64,000 nt of DNA from Clostridiales bacterium Firm_04. Lineage in GTDB: Bacteria > Bacillota > Clostridia > Oscillospirales > Ruminococcaceae. Shown piece after piece: positions 61 to 60,965 of this stretch; within the stretch, counting starts at the first letter, position 1, and the number at the start of each line of letters is the position of its first letter. Where the stretch lies: NCBI GenBank assembly GCA_001603005.1, contig LVAJ01000031.1:1-64000 (forward strand), written 5' to 3'. Below the pieces are notes generated by a model that worked only from the letters and a program-made list of their open reading frames with translations, did no database searches and had not been told where the DNA came from. The position numbers and the translations under genes were made by a program.

Positions 61-190
61 TTCTTCGTAAGCGATTGCCGTGAGCCCCCGCTGGCATATT
101 CCTCCGGGAGCCGGTTTCGCGGACTGTCCCCGCTTTCCGAGCACACGCCGCTAGACGCGGCTTCTCATAGGTTACTGCTCCCAGCGGATA
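61..190 (-). repeat. Dispersed repeat, module A, copy 1
   Basis: Read on the minus strand this matches segments near 32.14-32.42, 57.30-57.42 and 60.84-60.97 kb. Shared landmarks in order are GAGAAGCCGCG, GCGGCGTGT, a CCGGAGG block and a GCGGGGGCT block. It contains no supported gene. It abuts module B (next entry) in the same relative order as at 57 kb, so A and B probably form one composite element. Confidence 0.7.
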
Positions 191-610
191 AAGTGAATAG
201 TGAATGGTGAAGAATGAATCGTGAAAAGTGAATTGGGAAGCGCAGCGGGAGCATACGCAGGCGGATACGCACGGCGAAAGCGTTCAAGACAACTGCGCCT
301 CCAAAAAAACAAGCAGCGACAGTGGCGCGCACCAGAGGGGGAGAGAAATAAGGAAAGAGAGCGCGAGAGAAAACCTTAAGAGAGAGGGGGAGACCGGAGC
401 GGAGCGACGACTCCCCGCTCTCTTGGGTTGTCACCCCCGCCGCGGGGAGCCGAAACACACGAGGGGAACTGCGGCGAAACATGGGAGATAGGACGCAAGC
501 GGGGAGCCCTCGCGCCCCGCGCCCAGTCAAATGGAACGTCGGACAAAGGATAAAGAGAGGATGACGAAAGTGCGCTCTTACACCCGCGCCCAGTCAAGTC
601 ATGCGGACGG
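191..610 (+). repeat. Dispersed repeat, module B, copy 1
   Basis: Begins with short tandem GTGAAT-type units (about 198-232). A long block follows, with GGGAGCATACGCAGGCGG, GCGTTCAAGACAACTGCGCC, AACAAGCAGCGACAGTGGCG and ACCGGAGCG landmarks. It is closely matched at 55.78-56.12 kb in the same orientation and at 56.98-57.30 kb inverted. The end carries repeated CGCGCCCAGTCAA-like words. Short open frames across it are not conserved in reading frame between copies, so it is treated as non-coding. Confidence 0.75.
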
Positions 611-985
611 ATAAAAAACTGATATGCAAAAAAATTTGACGAACTGTTAGCGCGATGTGCAATTCGCCAATATGTAATTTTCAAGGTTCCAAGCGCGTTG
701 TGACTTCGGCTTACTCCGGTCGGACACCTCATTGCGCTGCCGATTCTGCCTACTGGACCGCATCGGCTGGCTCCGCACATTCTTTCCCGCGGATGCCCCC
801 GATGCATAGCGCCCTCTACTAATAGCGCTCAAATCGCCAAAATTTGCACGTTTCCGTGCAACTAGTACCGAATTGTAATCAAATCTTCATAAATAAGCTT
901 GGATTTAGCAAAATAAAACAAATCATGCACAAAATAATCATAATCGAAATGATAGGCAAAATGCGCCCCTTTTTTGCGACGCAAT
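611..985. other. Gene-free stretch, nothing recognised
   Basis: No ORF here has both a plausible start site and recognisable protein similarity. The part from about 660 to 840 is GC-rich and could be a decayed gene or element remnant; from about 840 to 960 it becomes markedly AT-rich. I see no RNA gene or promoter that can be tied to a neighbour. Confidence 0.4.
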
Positions 986-13887: not shown

Positions 13888-14532
13888 ATGGAGGAGCAGA
13901 ATGTGCAGGCACCGGAAAAGTCCGGCGGCATCAAGGGCTTTCTGTGTGACTTAATGGATATTCTGGAAGCGGCAGTGCTGACCGTGTTTATCTTCCTGCT
14001 GCTCTTTGCATATGTCGTCCGCCCTGTGACGGTGGACGGTCCGTCCATGAATCCGACGCTGCTGAATGAGGATAAGATCGTCATTGTGACGGCACTGCAT
14101 CAGCCGAAAAACGGTCAGATCGTTGTGATCGACGACCAGAAGGCGGGGCTCTTTGCCGACGTCGAGCAGAAGAACGTCTATGAGAGCGACGGCGCAGGCA
14201 TCGTCATCATCAAGCGCCTGATCGCACACGGCGGACAGGAGATCGACATTGATTTCGAGGCAAAGACCGTTTCCGTGGACGGCGTGGTGCTCGATGAGCC
14301 GTATATCGCGGAGCCGACCTCCAAAGACGAGGGCGCATTCCTCTATCCCTTTACCGTGCCGGAGGGCTACCTCTTTGTCATGGGCGACAACCGGCAGCGC
14401 AGCATGGACAGCCGCAGCCCGTCAGTCGCGCTGATCCCTGAGGATCAGGTGCTCGGTACGGCGCTGGTGCGCTACGGACGCAACAGCGAGAACTGCTCCA
14501 AATTCACGGACCGGTTCGACTATCTGTTCTGA
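13888..14532 (+). CDS. Signal peptidase I, paralogue 1
   Basis: Type I signal peptidase that releases exported proteins by cutting signal peptides outside the membrane. 214 residues with one N-terminal membrane anchor (about 27-46). The catalytic serine is Ser53 in DGPSMNPTL and the general-base lysine is Lys109 in IIKRLIAHGG. Box E is GDNRQRSMDSR. First of three tandem copies in the place where most Firmicutes carry one lepB. Its C-terminal end (NCSKFTDRFDYLF) is identical to that of copy 2. Confidence 0.95.
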   Translation: MEEQNVQAPEKSGGIKGFLCDLMDILEAAVLTVFIFLLLFAYVVRPVTVDGPSMNPTLLNEDKIVIVTALHQPKNGQIVVIDDQKAGLFADVEQKNVYESDGAGIVIIKRLIAHGGQEIDIDFEAKTVSVDGVVLDEPYIAEPTSKDEGAFLYPFTVPEGYLFVMGDNRQRSMDSRSPSVALIPEDQVLGTALVRYGRNSENCSKFTDRFDYLF

Positions 14533-14561
14533 TATTCTGATGCGAAAGGGAGGCGTTCTCA

Positions 14562-15287
14562 ATGGAGCCTGCAGAAAAACTCGATCAAGAAATCCAAACG
14601 GCACAGACTGAATCTGCCGAACAGCCGGAACCGGCTGCCGTTCAGACAGAGACAGATGTGCAGGAGAAAGAGGAGAAACCGGAAAAGGAGCATTTCCTCA
14701 GTGACCTGATGGATATTGCGGAAGCCGGCATCCTGACGATGTTTCTCGTGATGCTGGTCTTTACATATATTGTCCGGCCTGTGAGCGTGGACGGCAGTTC
14801 CATGAATCCGACACTGCTGCATCTCGACCGGATCCTTGTCGTGCGGCCGCTCTATGAGCCGAAAAACGGGCAGATCATCGTGATCGACGATCAGAAATCC
14901 GGCATCTTTTCGGATGCGTCGCAGCAGACGGTGCAGGAGACAACGGGCTCGGGCATGGTGCTCGTCAAGCGCCTGATCGCGAAAGCCGGTCAGGAGATCG
15001 ACATTGATTTTGATACCGGCGAGGTCAAGGTGGACGGCAAGCTGCTCAATGAGCCGTATATCGCGGATCCGACCACGCGCGATGAGGGCGCGTTCCAGTA
15101 TCCGTTCACGGTGCCGGAGGGCTATGTCTTTGCAATGGGCGACAACCGCCTGCACAGCATGGACAGCCGCGATCCTTCGGTCGGACTGCTGCCGGAGGAC
15201 GAGATCCTCGGCACGGCGCTGGTGCGCTTCGACCGTGATGATGAGAACTGTTCCAAATTCACGGACCGGTTCGATTATCTGTTCTGA
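14562..15287 (+). CDS. Signal peptidase I, paralogue 2
   Basis: 241 residues. A Glu/Gln/Thr-rich cytoplasmic extension of about 43 residues precedes the membrane anchor (about 53-71). Catalytic Ser80 (DGSSMNPTL) and Lys136 (LVKRLIAKAG) are present, and box E is GDNRLHSMDSR. It starts MEPAE, as copy 3 does, and ends like copy 1. An AAAGGGAGG ribosome site lies 29 bases downstream of copy 1, so the three are one transcript. Active-site residues predict a functional enzyme; possible substrate division among the copies is inference. Confidence 0.95.
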   Translation: MEPAEKLDQEIQTAQTESAEQPEPAAVQTETDVQEKEEKPEKEHFLSDLMDIAEAGILTMFLVMLVFTYIVRPVSVDGSSMNPTLLHLDRILVVRPLYEPKNGQIIVIDDQKSGIFSDASQQTVQETTGSGMVLVKRLIAKAGQEIDIDFDTGEVKVDGKLLNEPYIADPTTRDEGAFQYPFTVPEGYVFAMGDNRLHSMDSRDPSVGLLPEDEILGTALVRFDRDDENCSKFTDRFDYLF

Positions 15288-15316
15288 AATACTGATGCGA
15301 AACGGAGGGATGCAGC

Positions 15317-16015
15317 ATGGAACCGGCAGAAAATGAAAAGCTGGAATCTGCAAATGCACAGGATGCACAGCCGGATACCAAGCCGGAACAGGATGCTGTG
15401 CCGGAGCAGGAACAGGAGCAGGAGCAATCCGGAGAAGGCAAGGAGGGCAGCTTCGCTGCCGATCTGATGGATCTTCTGGAATCTGTATTCGTTTCGGTGT
15501 TTGTGGTCATGCTGATCTTTACATTTCTGGTCTGTACGGCGGATGTGGACGGCGACTCGATGAAGCCGACGCTTGAGGACGGAGACCGGCTTCTGGTCTC
15601 CCGCATCGACCGCAGCTACGAGACCGGCGATGTCCTGATTTTAGATGCAAAAAAAGCATACATCTTTAACGACGAAATGCAGGTGACCGAGCAGGAAGGT
15701 CTCGGCAAGCGGATCGTCAAGCGCCTGATCGCGCAGGGCGGTCAGGAGGTCGATATCCATTTTGATGAGGGCGTTGTCTATGTGGACGGACAGCCGCTCG
15801 ATGAGCCGTATGTCAGCTCGCTGACGAATTACAGCACCGGCAGCTTTCAATTCCCGATCACGGTGCCGGAGGGGTATATCTTTGTGCTCGGCGACAACCG
15901 CTATATCTCCAAGGACAGCCGCTCGGACGAGATCGGCTTTGTGCCGGTGAATCAGATCGTCGGCAAGGTCTTTCTGCGGCTTTCCCCGCTGAGCAGCTTC
16001 GGCAAGATCGACTGA
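15317..16015 (+). CDS. Signal peptidase I, paralogue 3
   Basis: 232 residues with an acidic, glutamine-rich cytoplasmic extension (about 1-45, containing a run of EQ repeats). The membrane anchor is about 54-73, catalytic Ser81 lies in DGDSMKPTL and Lys135 in IVKRLIAQGG. Box E is GDNRYISKDSR. The C-terminus differs from copies 1 and 2 (ends FGKID), so this copy has diverged most. Next gene, rbgA, follows after 29 bases. Confidence 0.95.
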   Translation: MEPAENEKLESANAQDAQPDTKPEQDAVPEQEQEQEQSGEGKEGSFAADLMDLLESVFVSVFVVMLIFTFLVCTADVDGDSMKPTLEDGDRLLVSRIDRSYETGDVLILDAKKAYIFNDEMQVTEQEGLGKRIVKRLIAQGGQEVDIHFDEGVVYVDGQPLDEPYVSSLTNYSTGSFQFPITVPEGYIFVLGDNRYISKDSRSDEIGFVPVNQIVGKVFLRLSPLSSFGKID

Positions 16016-32091: not shown

Positions 32092-32120
32092 ATTATATCA
32101 TATTATGTCGAAAAGTGCAA
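32092..32120 (-). promoter_or_regulatory. Promoter of nadBC
   Basis: Minus-strand TTGCAC, 17-base spacer, TATAAT. A second copy of the same segment lies 162 bases upstream (TTGCAC at 32277-32282, TATAAG at 32254-32259). Confidence 0.85.
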
Positions 32121-32416
32121 TGGGAGTGCATGAAAAAAACGTGGTTTTTGGGAGCAGCAGCAAATGAGAAGCCGCGTTCAGCGGCGTGTACTGCAAATAC
32201 TGGGAGAGCCACGCTGCCGGTTTCCGGAGGGGAATGCCCGCGGGGGCTCCCCGCTTATATCATATTATGTCGAAAAGTGCAATGGGAGTGCATGAAAAAA
32301 ACGTGGTTTTTGGGAGCAGCAGCAAATGAGAAGCCGCGTTCAGCGGCGTGTATTGCGAATGTTGGGAGAGCCACGTCGCCGGTTTCCGGAGGGGAATGCC
32401 CGCGGGGGCTCCCCGC
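32093..32416 (-). repeat. Tandem duplication of 162 bp spanning the nadB promoter and repeat module A
   Basis: Copies are 32093-32254 and 32255-32416, head to tail, differing at about six to eight positions. Each unit holds the -35 and most of the -10 of nadB at one end and a module A repeat (GAAGCCGCG, GCGGCGTGT, GGAGGGGAATGCCCGCGGGG) at the other. The promoter-distal copy has TATAAG instead of TATAAT. Confidence 0.93.
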
Positions 32417-32419
32417 CTG

Positions 32420-32700
32420 CTTCGCAGATGCGATTCAGAATGAGGAAAGCAGCCCTACGGGGTACTTTCTCCAAGCCCCAATCTTCCCCTTAGAGAACGC
32501 TGGGGGAGTTTCGCGATCTGCGGATCGCATGTTTTGCGAAGCAAAACTGCTCAGTTTGCTTGCAAACGTGAGCGACGAGGGCACTCGCACGCTTCGCTAT
32601 GAGTTTGCAGGCAAACGCACCTCGACCTGCCAACTTTTGAAAAAGTTGGATCAAAACTTTCATGCTGGTGCGCGCCGGATGCGTCGTGCGTAACACGGAT
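32420..32700. repeat. Palindrome-rich intergenic block upstream of the second dockerin gene
   Basis: Contains short perfect palindromic words: TTTTGCGAAGCAAAA, GTTTGCTTGCAAAC, and CAACTTTTGAAAAAGTTG with a TTTTGATCC-like neighbour. Related words recur at 35.34-35.39 kb and 57.10-57.16 kb. The frame open across this block (from 32115) is treated as a by-product of the 162-bp repeat, not a gene. Confidence 0.6.
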
Positions 32701-32765
32701 ACGTTTGCGAAAATGCAGTCATGCGTTTCATTTCTTGTTTTACACTTTAATAATCGGAATAGATA

Positions 32766-55778: not shown

Positions 55779-56118
55779 TGAATGGTGAAAAACGGAGCAC
55801 ATCGGGAGCATACGCAGGCGGGCGCATACGGCGAAGGCGTTCAAGACAACTGCGCCCCCAAAAAACAAGCAGCGACAGTGGCGCGCAATTAGAGAGGAGA
55901 GGATAAGGAGAGAGGGAGCGCGAGGGGGAGAACCTTAGGGAGAGGGGAGACCGGAGCGCAGCGACGACTTCCCTCTTCCTATGGTGCTTCCCCTCGCATT
56001 CGCGCCTCGCGCCCAGACAGATCTGACGTCGGACACAAGATGAAGAACAGGTAGCGAAAGCGCTCTGCATAATAAATGAAACAGTGAATCGTAATCGGCA
56101 CCCGCGCCCAGTGAAACA
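55779..56118 (+). repeat. Dispersed repeat, module B, copy 2
   Basis: Same orientation as copy 1. GGGAGCATACGCAGGCGG, GCGTTCAAGACAACTGCGCC, AACAAGCAGCGACAGTGGCG and ACCGGAGCG landmarks all recur with indels. Ends with CGCGCCCAG words. No module A follows. Confidence 0.8.
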
Positions 56119-56726
56119 CGATGACAAAAGCCACTTCATAAATATAAAAAGTAAGATTTCATAACATATCATCATGCTGAAAAGATTGACGATATTGCTC
56201 CAAATAGAACAATATTATACATATCATCACAATATCAATGCAATTCGCATTCAAATTCTTATGACGATATGCAACTTTGACACGCAATATCGTAATAATG
56301 AAACCTTTGAAAACAGCGCAGATGCGGCATTATCGTCTTTTGTTCAATCAAATACGTATCATATTCTAATTGTGAAAAAGTGAAATGTTGAAACGTATCT
56401 GTTCTAACAAATAATGTATCCGTATGTGCTGTACCCCATGCCGTAACACCGCCCCTGCTCCGGTGCAGCAGCATCCCCGCAAATGACAAATGCCCCGAAC
56501 GCTTTTCTGTTCAGAGTGCCGTCCATGCATCCTGTACCGCCGGTGCTGCCGGTCTTTGCTTTCGCCTGCTCTTGCCTGCGATGCGGCGCTGTCTGTCCGA
56601 TGCAATATATTGTTATATGTTTTAATATGATATTATATTCTTGATATCCATGTATTTGCAGCGAATTGCCTATACATGAGTCCGGATTGCTTGTATCTTA
56701 TAACACAAATCTGAAAGGTTTCAAAG
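56119..56726. other. Gene-free AT-rich region
   Basis: No credible ORF with a ribosome site. About 56290-56390 carries loose copies of words of the next repeat (AATGAAACCTTTG, AAAAAGTGAAATGTTG). Nothing else recognised. Confidence 0.4.
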
Positions 56727-56944
56727 TTTCACTTTCTCATAATATGGAAATGAAACCTTCCGGGTAAAATGTTGCCAATTCTACTTTTATTGCTCATCGT
56801 TCGGCTTGTTCTGTGCAACATATCTGAAATATAAAAGGATTTCAGCGAGTAGTATGTGCAAAATCATGTTCCAACTTTTCACTTTTTCAGAATAAGAAAA
56901 TGAAACCTTTGGGGTGAAATGTTGCTGAATGTGCTTTTATTGCT
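56727..56944 (+). repeat. Direct repeat pair in the AT-rich region
   Basis: Units at 56727-56794 and 56877-56944. Both read TTTCACTTT, TCA-AATA, AAATGAAACCTT, GGGT-AAATGTTGC and CTTTTATTGCT in order. The units are about 150 bases apart and could be remnants of a further repeat family. Confidence 0.65.
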
Positions 56945-56984
56945 GTTTCGGGTGCGTAGCGCCTTCGCTGCCTGTTCCTGATCC

Positions 56985-57300
56985 TTTGTCCGATGTTTGA
57001 TTTAGTTGGGCGCGGGGCGCGAATGCGAGAGACAACCACAAGAGAGAGGGGAAGTCGTCGCTGCGCTCCGGTCTCCCCCTCCCTCTTAAGGTTTTCTCTC
57101 GCGCACGTTTCGCAAGCGAAACTGCGCAGTTTGCCAAAGGCAAACGTGCGCTCTCTTTCCTTATCTCTCTCCCTCTCTAATGCGCGCCACTGTCGCTGCT
57201 TGTTTTTTTGGGGGGGCGCAGTTGTCTTGAACGCCTTCGCCGTCCGCGCCCGCCTGCTTATGCTCCCGATGTGCTTTTTCACTATTCTCTATTCACTCTG
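56985..57300 (-). repeat. Dispersed repeat, module B, copy 3 (inverted)
   Basis: Reverse complement of copy 1 and copy 2 with the same landmarks, including the CGCGCCCAACT-type end, the AACAAGCAGCGACAGTGGCG block and the GTGAAT-rich end at about 57280-57297. It runs directly into module A. Confidence 0.8.
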
Positions 57301-57415
57301 TCTCATGGGAGTAGTGACCTTTGAGAAGCCGCCCCGCGGCGTGTACTGCGAATGCTGGGTGAGCCACGCTGCCGCACTCCGGAGGGAAACGGCAGCGGGC
57401 TCCGCGCCCCGCCCG
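57301..57415 (+). repeat. Dispersed repeat, module A, copy 2
   Basis: GAGAAGCCGC, GCGGCGTGT, GAGCCACGC and CCGGAGGGAAA landmarks. Adjacent to inverted module B, the mirror image of the 1-600 arrangement, so one composite A-B element is implied. Confidence 0.78.
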
Positions 57416-60639: not shown

Positions 60640-60965
60640 GAACGGGGAAGAATGAACAGTGAAAAACAGCGGTACCGCTTCGCAATGATCGGAAAGGGGC
60701 GTCACCGAATTATGCACAACGCATCCGGTGCGCCCGCCTGCTTATGCTCCCGAAAAAGAATTATGTGCGCCGTGCAGATCTTCACTTTTCACTATTCACT
60801 ATTCACCATTCACTCTATCCATTGGGACAGTCGCGTCACAGAAGCCGCGAATAGCGGCGTGAGCCGTCGAAACATGGAAAAGCCACGCCACCGCACTCCG
60901 GAGGGAAATGCCAGCGGGGGCTACCCGCCCGGAGGAAAATGCCCGCGGGGGCTACCCGCCGGAAT
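60640..60965 (+). repeat. Composite repeat, truncated B plus module A, copy 3
   Basis: GTGAACGG/GTGAAAA words at 60640-60665, a short B fragment with CGCCCGCCTGCTTATGCTCCCGA at about 60730-60752, tandem TTCACTATTCAC words at 60785-60815, then module A (GAAGCCGCG, GAGCCGTCGAAAC, CCGGAGGGAAATGCC, GCGGGGGCT) with the last part locally doubled. It occupies the gap before pckG. Confidence 0.75.

Follow-up and report, generated by a model that had tools for sequence, protein, structure and literature searches.

A scattered patchwork family of intergenic repeats with an evolutionarily conserved hairpin in a rumen bacterium

The window analysed here is a 64,000-nucleotide stretch of the genome of Clostridiales bacterium Firm_04 (contig LVAJ01000031.1, positions 1 to 64,000), and it carries several non-coding segments that recur between its genes. 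What are these segments, and why have they been kept and multiplied? The original prediction described two modules, A and B, that would travel as one composite unit belonging to a mobile element or a structured RNA. Descriptions of small interspersed repeats in rumen Ruminococcus seem to be scarce, and we found none in the open-access literature. We analysed the copies in the window, in the rest of its genome, in the genus and in the order.

Layout of the repeats in the window

A reading of each region together with a repeat search found repeats at all the predicted sites. The features are as follows.

82–181, minus strand: module A with its small hairpins, reversed
192–233, plus strand: heptamer array (AGTGAAT)n, linking A to the B linker
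334–448, plus strand: variant B-type hairpin, its 3′ arm from another subfamily (62.6 bits)
507–577, plus strand: end of B and tail, with ~66 bp of extra sequence between them and the hairpin
511–942, plus strand: module E, following B and overlapping its end
32093–32254, plus strand: A unit 1 of a tandem pair, its start a promoter-like sequence reading the opposite way
32255–32416, plus strand: A unit 2 of the tandem pair
55779–55890, plus strand: B linker
55891–56015, plus strand: B core, purine leader and long hairpin (151.9 bits; covariation)
56123–56960, plus strand: module D, AT-rich
56958–57287, minus strand: B reversed, hairpin at 57007–57106 and the part past a nested insertion
57105–57147, no strand: nested 43-bp double palindrome within B, GCGC on both sides
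57308–57402, plus strand: module A
60729–60753, minus strand: B linker fragment, 25 bp
60781–60814, minus strand: heptamer array
60840–60960, plus strand: module A, its last 31-bp hairpin unit repeated (60898–60960)

Adjoining A and B had been described at 61–610, where both modules are present and B is split by the ~66-bp segment. The pair at 56985–57415 is a reversed B followed by a forward A, spanning 56958–57402. At 60640–60965 module A was found as described, but the B hairpin is missing and only the short linker piece represents B. A forward B without A lies at 55779–56118, and A without B occurs twice near 32.1–32.4 kb, as tandem units of 162 bp each that match at 96%. The mirror-image boundary between A and B is genuine and is seen again outside the window. 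A frequent order is reversed A, AGTGAAT-type heptamers, a GC-rich linker, the B hairpin, a tail and then a larger module, D or E. At least 250 bp of module E is common to four further places in the same genome, with a 123-bp part at one more, and parts of module D (233–880 bp) were found at five further places, with B adjoining each.

The nested 43-bp insertion occurs in three other copies of the genome. It sits at the foot of the B hairpin, and double palindromes of this length, with ends ACGTTT/AAACGT or ATGTTT/AAACAT, were observed in several B subfamilies (L012, L017, L024, L199, L205). The palindrome resembles a very small mobile element in its own right.

Two other observations concern the same window. 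A further intergenic repeat module of ~150–170 bp lies at 32417–32725 (also at L285:2207–2369 and 15738–15902), with many 82–94% matches among the relatives' matches listed. Three tandem diverged copies at 13939–15922 carry a motif that reads like GDNR..S.DSR, and we take them to be, probably, type I signal peptidases.

Copies in the whole genome

The genome comprises 3.54 Mb in 53 contigs and is 88.6% complete. Using window 55779–56118 (340 bp) as the B query, we obtained at least 52 BLAST matches (40 of 54 candidates scored), the best non-self match having an E-value of 3.3e-98. The A query (window 32093–32254) gave at least 56 (40 of 182 candidates scored). A covariance model of the B core gave 68 matches, which were merged by hand into 38 hairpin places, 27 opposite-strand echoes and 3 fragments. 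The copies are therefore not confined to the window, and many more are found across the genome and the genus. At least nine contigs start or stop in a copy or within ~120 bp of one, as is expected because repeats break assemblies.

The arrangement of these copies does not agree with A and B being one fixed mobile unit of 420–530 bp. Each module also occurs without the other, B forms inverted B-B pairs, and A units stand in tandem. We examined 14 divergent B-B pairs, whose members lie 11–168 bp apart. In 2 of the 14 (L197, L198) one outer flank clearly repeats the other in inverted orientation, so that some copies are long inverted-repeat elements; neither ends nor a target duplication could be located for these two. 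The family shows palindromic units as inverted pairs between genes, a feature of the REP/BIME type, and several non-coding intergenic modules in varying combination, a BOX/NIME-like feature, in kind and not as a family. The repeats of the window are a scattered, non-coding, intergenic patchwork family of this rumen bacterium.

Fold of the B hairpin

The B core measures 125 nt and consists of a hairpin preceded by an unpaired purine leader. All six copies that were folded singly had low energies relative to shuffled sequences (z from −4.1 to −7.1). The B alignments contain length differences of 1–2 nt between copies, as would fit the predicted lack of a conserved reading frame. Covariation was estimated in alignment A4, a plain MAFFT alignment of 43 hairpins of three genera that were picked to span subfamilies and are partly out of register. 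Changes on both sides that keep the pairing were found at 24 of the 28 stem pairs. They amounted to 189 double-change cells, against 62.3 in shuffled alignments and 21–52 when the partner was slid by 1–3 columns; further pair types were not above shuffles (189 of 500 shuffles reach the observed number). The narrower alignment A2 keeps 23 of 41 hairpins, leaving out 4 with the nested insertion, 12 that are register-shifted, 1 shortened and 1 mis-anchored, and gave 7 of 27 pairs with 20 cells against 5.0 shuffled. Another alignment, A7, keeps 34 of 63 rows, and locus L286 was left out of the analysis. Because the cells share ancestry, which affects covariation cells and wobble cells alike, we put more weight on the slid controls.

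The wobble pairs distinguish the two strands. G-U outnumbered A-C by 60 to 1 in A2 and by 84 to 33 in A4. Among 102 sequences selected on Watson-Crick pairs only, there were 199 G-U cells at 18 positions versus 48 A-C cells at 11 positions, and A-C cells thus do occur outside A2. This preference of about 4:1 indicates that the strand with the purine leader folds, either as RNA or as single-stranded DNA; a double-stranded cruciform, by our reasoning, should not favour G-U over A-C. The base opposite the U that follows the central ACC (this U is fixed by the search motif) is U or G in 99 of 101 sequences and A in 1, and the standard U-A pair seems to be avoided there.

Across three related genera, evolution has preserved how the B hairpin folds rather than its letters, and these paired changes bear out the suggestion of a structured repeat, for which a covariance check had been proposed. 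Module A is conserved in sequence and has small hairpins with little covariation (3 of 16 pairs).

Distribution in the genus, family and order

The covariance model of the B core, R1, matched 27 of the 30 genus genomes, with no match in G007, G015 and G016. A plain DNA search detected B in 22 of 61 genomes, every one within the genus, and most relatives match just positions ~113–271 of the 340-bp query. In the order-wide search, which covered 295 genomes with stricter filters and with 11 candidates scored per genome listed, R1 matched seven genomes: that of the window, three of genus g33, one of genus g35 (G144) and two with weak matches (G192, G285). The weak matches look like plain palindromes in which the leader is absent, and they were not counted as homologues. 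Deeper scoring of 150 candidates gave 36 matches in G144, 16 in G131, 20 in G184 and 19 in G067, opposite-strand echoes included.

The sequences of g33 and G144 have the TAAGGAAAGAGGGAGC-type leader stretch and the ACC/GGT centre of the window's B. Their surroundings are quite unlike those of the window's B, and the flanking modules vary by genus. Module A was found at 14 of the 75 genus loci that had been retrieved for B (some places twice), and at none of 63 loci from the other two genera. Likeness to one reference copy per genome was 77–94% in G144 and 80–95% in G184; as the copies are alike within each genome, separate expansions of the family seem to have taken place in the individual genomes. 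Named records with the exact B core pattern are metagenome-assembled genomes called Ruminococcus or Oscillospiraceae, and 5 of 11 come from sheep or goat omasum. The elements of g33 have long, highly conserved 5′ parts, which might form a larger structured RNA.

Gene context and orthologous sites

The gene context was determined with a simple codon-usage gene caller for the hairpins matching the anchor motifs (24 in the window's genome, 62 in the genus, 21 in G144 and 21 in g33). It had been predicted that the repeats sit only between genes. This holds for nearly all of them, but B overlaps a called gene in 2 of the 24 hairpins of the window's genome and in 1 of the 62 same-genus hairpins.

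The strand of the neighbouring genes was mixed. The upstream gene was on the same strand in 6 cases and on the opposite strand in 14 in the window's genome, with 13 and 22 in the genus and 12 and 8 in g33; the downstream gene was on the same strand in 14 cases and on the opposite strand in 6 in the window's genome, with 23 and 11 in the genus (the remaining hairpins had no called neighbour). A consistent strand relative to the neighbouring gene was thus not found in the window's genome, the genus or g33, and this speaks against the element acting in cis within a transcript. The orientation is not perfectly random, as the same-strand downstream gene in 14 of 20 and 23 of 34 cases indicates. Five copies in g33 (L170, L216, L223, L225, L237) lie 66–143 bp upstream of the start of a same-strand called gene. 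In G144, 16 of the 18 copies with a called upstream gene follow a gene of the same strand, and this one-sided orientation is explained by insertion at terminators.

We looked for empty sites in relatives. The window gene next to one repeat copy encodes PEPCK (NF003253), and the stretches upstream of PEPCK in 13 relatives had no match to A (0/13) or R1 (0/13); the window copy there is without the hairpin, and the R1 result does not bear on that copy. The B profile matched 1 of the 13, at L153:1537–1587, which is a 51-nt remnant of the B 3′ end. Sites upstream of PEPCK can thus be reused, or old copies decay there. Upstream of a glycosyltransferase gene, six relatives had no R1 match, and in one of the six stretches A matched at a long distance from the start of the gene. 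Neither place is a clean empty site, as different genes lie on the far side.

The check for empty sites gave one much shorter orthologous site, in G004. It has 55 bp, with neither an A nor a B match, where the window's genome has 1.24 kb with three A matches. This could be a gain in the window's genome or a loss in G004. Mobility of the repeats is supported by this site together with the species-specific surroundings.

Of 63 distinct A ends, sorted by eye, many are followed closely by a promoter, and in G004 the promoter at 57.4 kb is present without the element. A special targeting of the −35 box was rejected, since other A ends face terminators, gene ends or reversed promoters. Elsewhere in the window's genome, ~570 bp with an extra reading frame (L285:12367–12935) corresponds to 25 bp between matched stretches in G025, and this segment is not an A/B repeat.

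IS1182-type elements in a sister genus

The genome of G144 is a single contig of 2.69 Mb, and here the hairpin lies inside elements of ~500–570 bp with the ends CAGnCTGTCGAAAAAC and GACTTTTTCTACAAnCTG. This end pattern matched 103 times, compared with 12 for the reversed control, and other G144 elements, which have such ends but lack the B hairpin, measure 54–355 bp. Whole terminator stem-loops occur as flanking direct repeats at 9 of the 20 B-type loci and at 10 of 20 others. We interpret the G144 elements as IS1182-type MITEs. No autonomous parent was detected in 20 regions judged by ORF length, and a split IS1182-like gene lies elsewhere in G144. A 6S RNA gene (RF00013, above gathering; L168:2050–2240, minus strand) was observed near one G144 copy.

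An IS1182-family element of G007 (NF033551, above cut-off; L273:1359–2995) bears ends of this kind, and an exact 27-bp copy of a terminator flanks it on both sides. The window's genome also encodes an IS1182 transposase with such a left end and a terminator adjoining it, and just one copy of that terminator was found within the 4.1 kb examined.

Are the repeats of the window MITEs of this kind? Their terminal inverted repeats would be CAGnCTGTCGAAAAA and TTTTTCTACAAnCTG, which match twice in the window against 0.39 expected, neither match lying in a repeat. The automatic duplication test gave 0 of 22 loci in g33, 1 of 90 in the window's genome, which was judged to be chance, and 4 of the 75 from other genus members, which, judging by their sequence, are not terminators beside an element. 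With no such ends and no duplication, the repeats of the window are not IS1182-type MITEs, and none of the mobile elements tested accounts for them.

Searches against known families

The repeats of the window had no match at gathering in Rfam 15. When nine loci were searched, the repeats drew microRNA models only, far below thresholds, and the sole above-threshold match was 6S RNA beside a repeat, not in it. A known RNA family was therefore rejected at threshold. An origin from a plasmid, phage or virus was rejected with a different query for each: B had no match to plasmids, window 61–610 had none to phages, and three exact patterns had none to viral contigs. The Y1 (RAYT) transposase domain PF01797 was absent from the window's genome and present in 3 of 30 genus genomes, one of these without the hairpin, and the same search was positive in 5 of 14 control genomes. 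A classical RAYT was accordingly rejected as the mover. We also rejected a stand-alone RNA gene, as no conserved promoter-like stretch was seen upstream of B by eye, without scoring. In none of the libraries searched does the repeat have a match, in accord with its description as unrecognised, and it is apparently non-autonomous.

Proposed explanation and its rivals

We favour, with moderate confidence, that the window copies are a non-coding, non-autonomous intergenic mosaic repeat in which the single-strand hairpin is the transmitted unit. A copying machinery would read the hairpin as single-stranded DNA or as an RNA copy, not as a double-stranded cruciform. Just those copies with an intact hairpin would be copied on, and selection for the fold could arise in this way without any service to neighbouring genes. 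The work would be done by an enzyme encoded elsewhere, and the larger arrays of A, heptamers, B and D or E may grow through recombination and nested insertion. We infer this way of moving from the dispersal, the mosaic build, the strand-specific hairpin and the lack of a clear cis pattern, all of which fit a hairpin that is read by a copying enzyme.

The main rival is that the B hairpin would be a functional RNA within transcripts, such as a terminator, a stabiliser or a leader regulator, kept by the host in many intergenic regions. The strong compensatory change, the G-U preference and the conserved purine leader are what such an RNA would have, and the five g33 copies shortly upstream of gene starts and the G144 copies behind same-strand genes would suit it too. 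However, the gene orientation is inconsistent in the other genomes, the G144 orientation is accounted for by insertion at terminators, the element is missing from one orthologous site, and neither a conserved promoter, judged by eye, nor an Rfam family at threshold was found. We consider the functional RNA rather unlikely.

Two kinds of transposition were also weighed as explanations. An origin of the repeats as MITEs from a resident transposon of the IS1182 family, as in G144, is suggested by the G144 ends and terminator duplications, by the G007 element and by the transposase with its adjoining terminator in the window's genome itself. However, the window repeats have neither the ends nor the duplication, a single terminator copy was found beside that resident IS1182, and G007 has a full-length IS1182 transposase match but no B hairpin match. 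This explanation is mostly refuted for the window and is improbable. REP/BIME elements moved by a Y1 (RAYT) transposase would likewise be intergenic, with irregular pairs in the hairpin, a conserved 5′ single-stranded stretch and inverted pairs. The scarcity of PF01797 in the genus, its absence from the window's genome and its presence in control genomes argue against them, and the B hairpin is several times longer than a REP. With the classical enzyme this explanation is refuted, and we regard it as very improbable.

The mosaic repeat with a transmitted hairpin may be extended further. The B core could be a single-strand hairpin that is a unit in itself and that some machinery, neither Y1/RAYT nor IS1182, has been copying within genomes and from one genome to another since before the three genera of the family split. 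An IS1182-type MITE would have captured it as cargo. The hairpin would then represent a new class of mobilisable hairpin, a proposal that we put forward tentatively and hold to be rather doubtful.

The family offers a strongly covarying structure, a strand assignment and a set of copies in a one-contig genome. The covariance model can be used to annotate these genomes, and the question of which enzyme reads the hairpin can now be put to the test. The IS1182-type elements, moreover, provide a natural example of the duplication of whole terminators.

Comparison with known systems

The B stem shares support by covariation with the structured RNAs of Rfam 15, and differs from them in having no above-threshold match. 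In the parts of the IS1272 study considered here (PMC5678879), IS1272 is placed in the IS1182 family and replaces stem-loops, and duplication is drawn as model pathway b. The likeness lies in the sister-genus hairpin within MITEs that have IS1182-like ends, and in stem-loops as the target. Unlike IS1272 as described in those parts, which replaces the stem-loop, the G144 and G007 elements duplicate it, whereas the window copies do neither. The terminator duplications of G007 and G144 (L240–L272) may be viewed as a natural counterpart of the duplication pathway drawn there (PMC5678879).

NIME, Correia elements and enterobacterial BIMEs, as they appear in the excerpts of the pneumococcal BOX study used here (PMC3049150), are also composite, intergenic and built of repeated palindromic units, a likeness in kind. 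The difference is that the window's genome has no RAYT-type enzyme. The copies may work in a mode like that of REP/BIME or pneumococcal BOX, and we claim membership in neither. In the same excerpts (PMC3049150), BOX consists of composite intergenic, separable modules that are folded if transcribed and whose mobiliser is inferred, as is the case here. However, the core here is one long hairpin with strong cross-genus covariation and inverted pairs; the likeness to BOX is one of kind.
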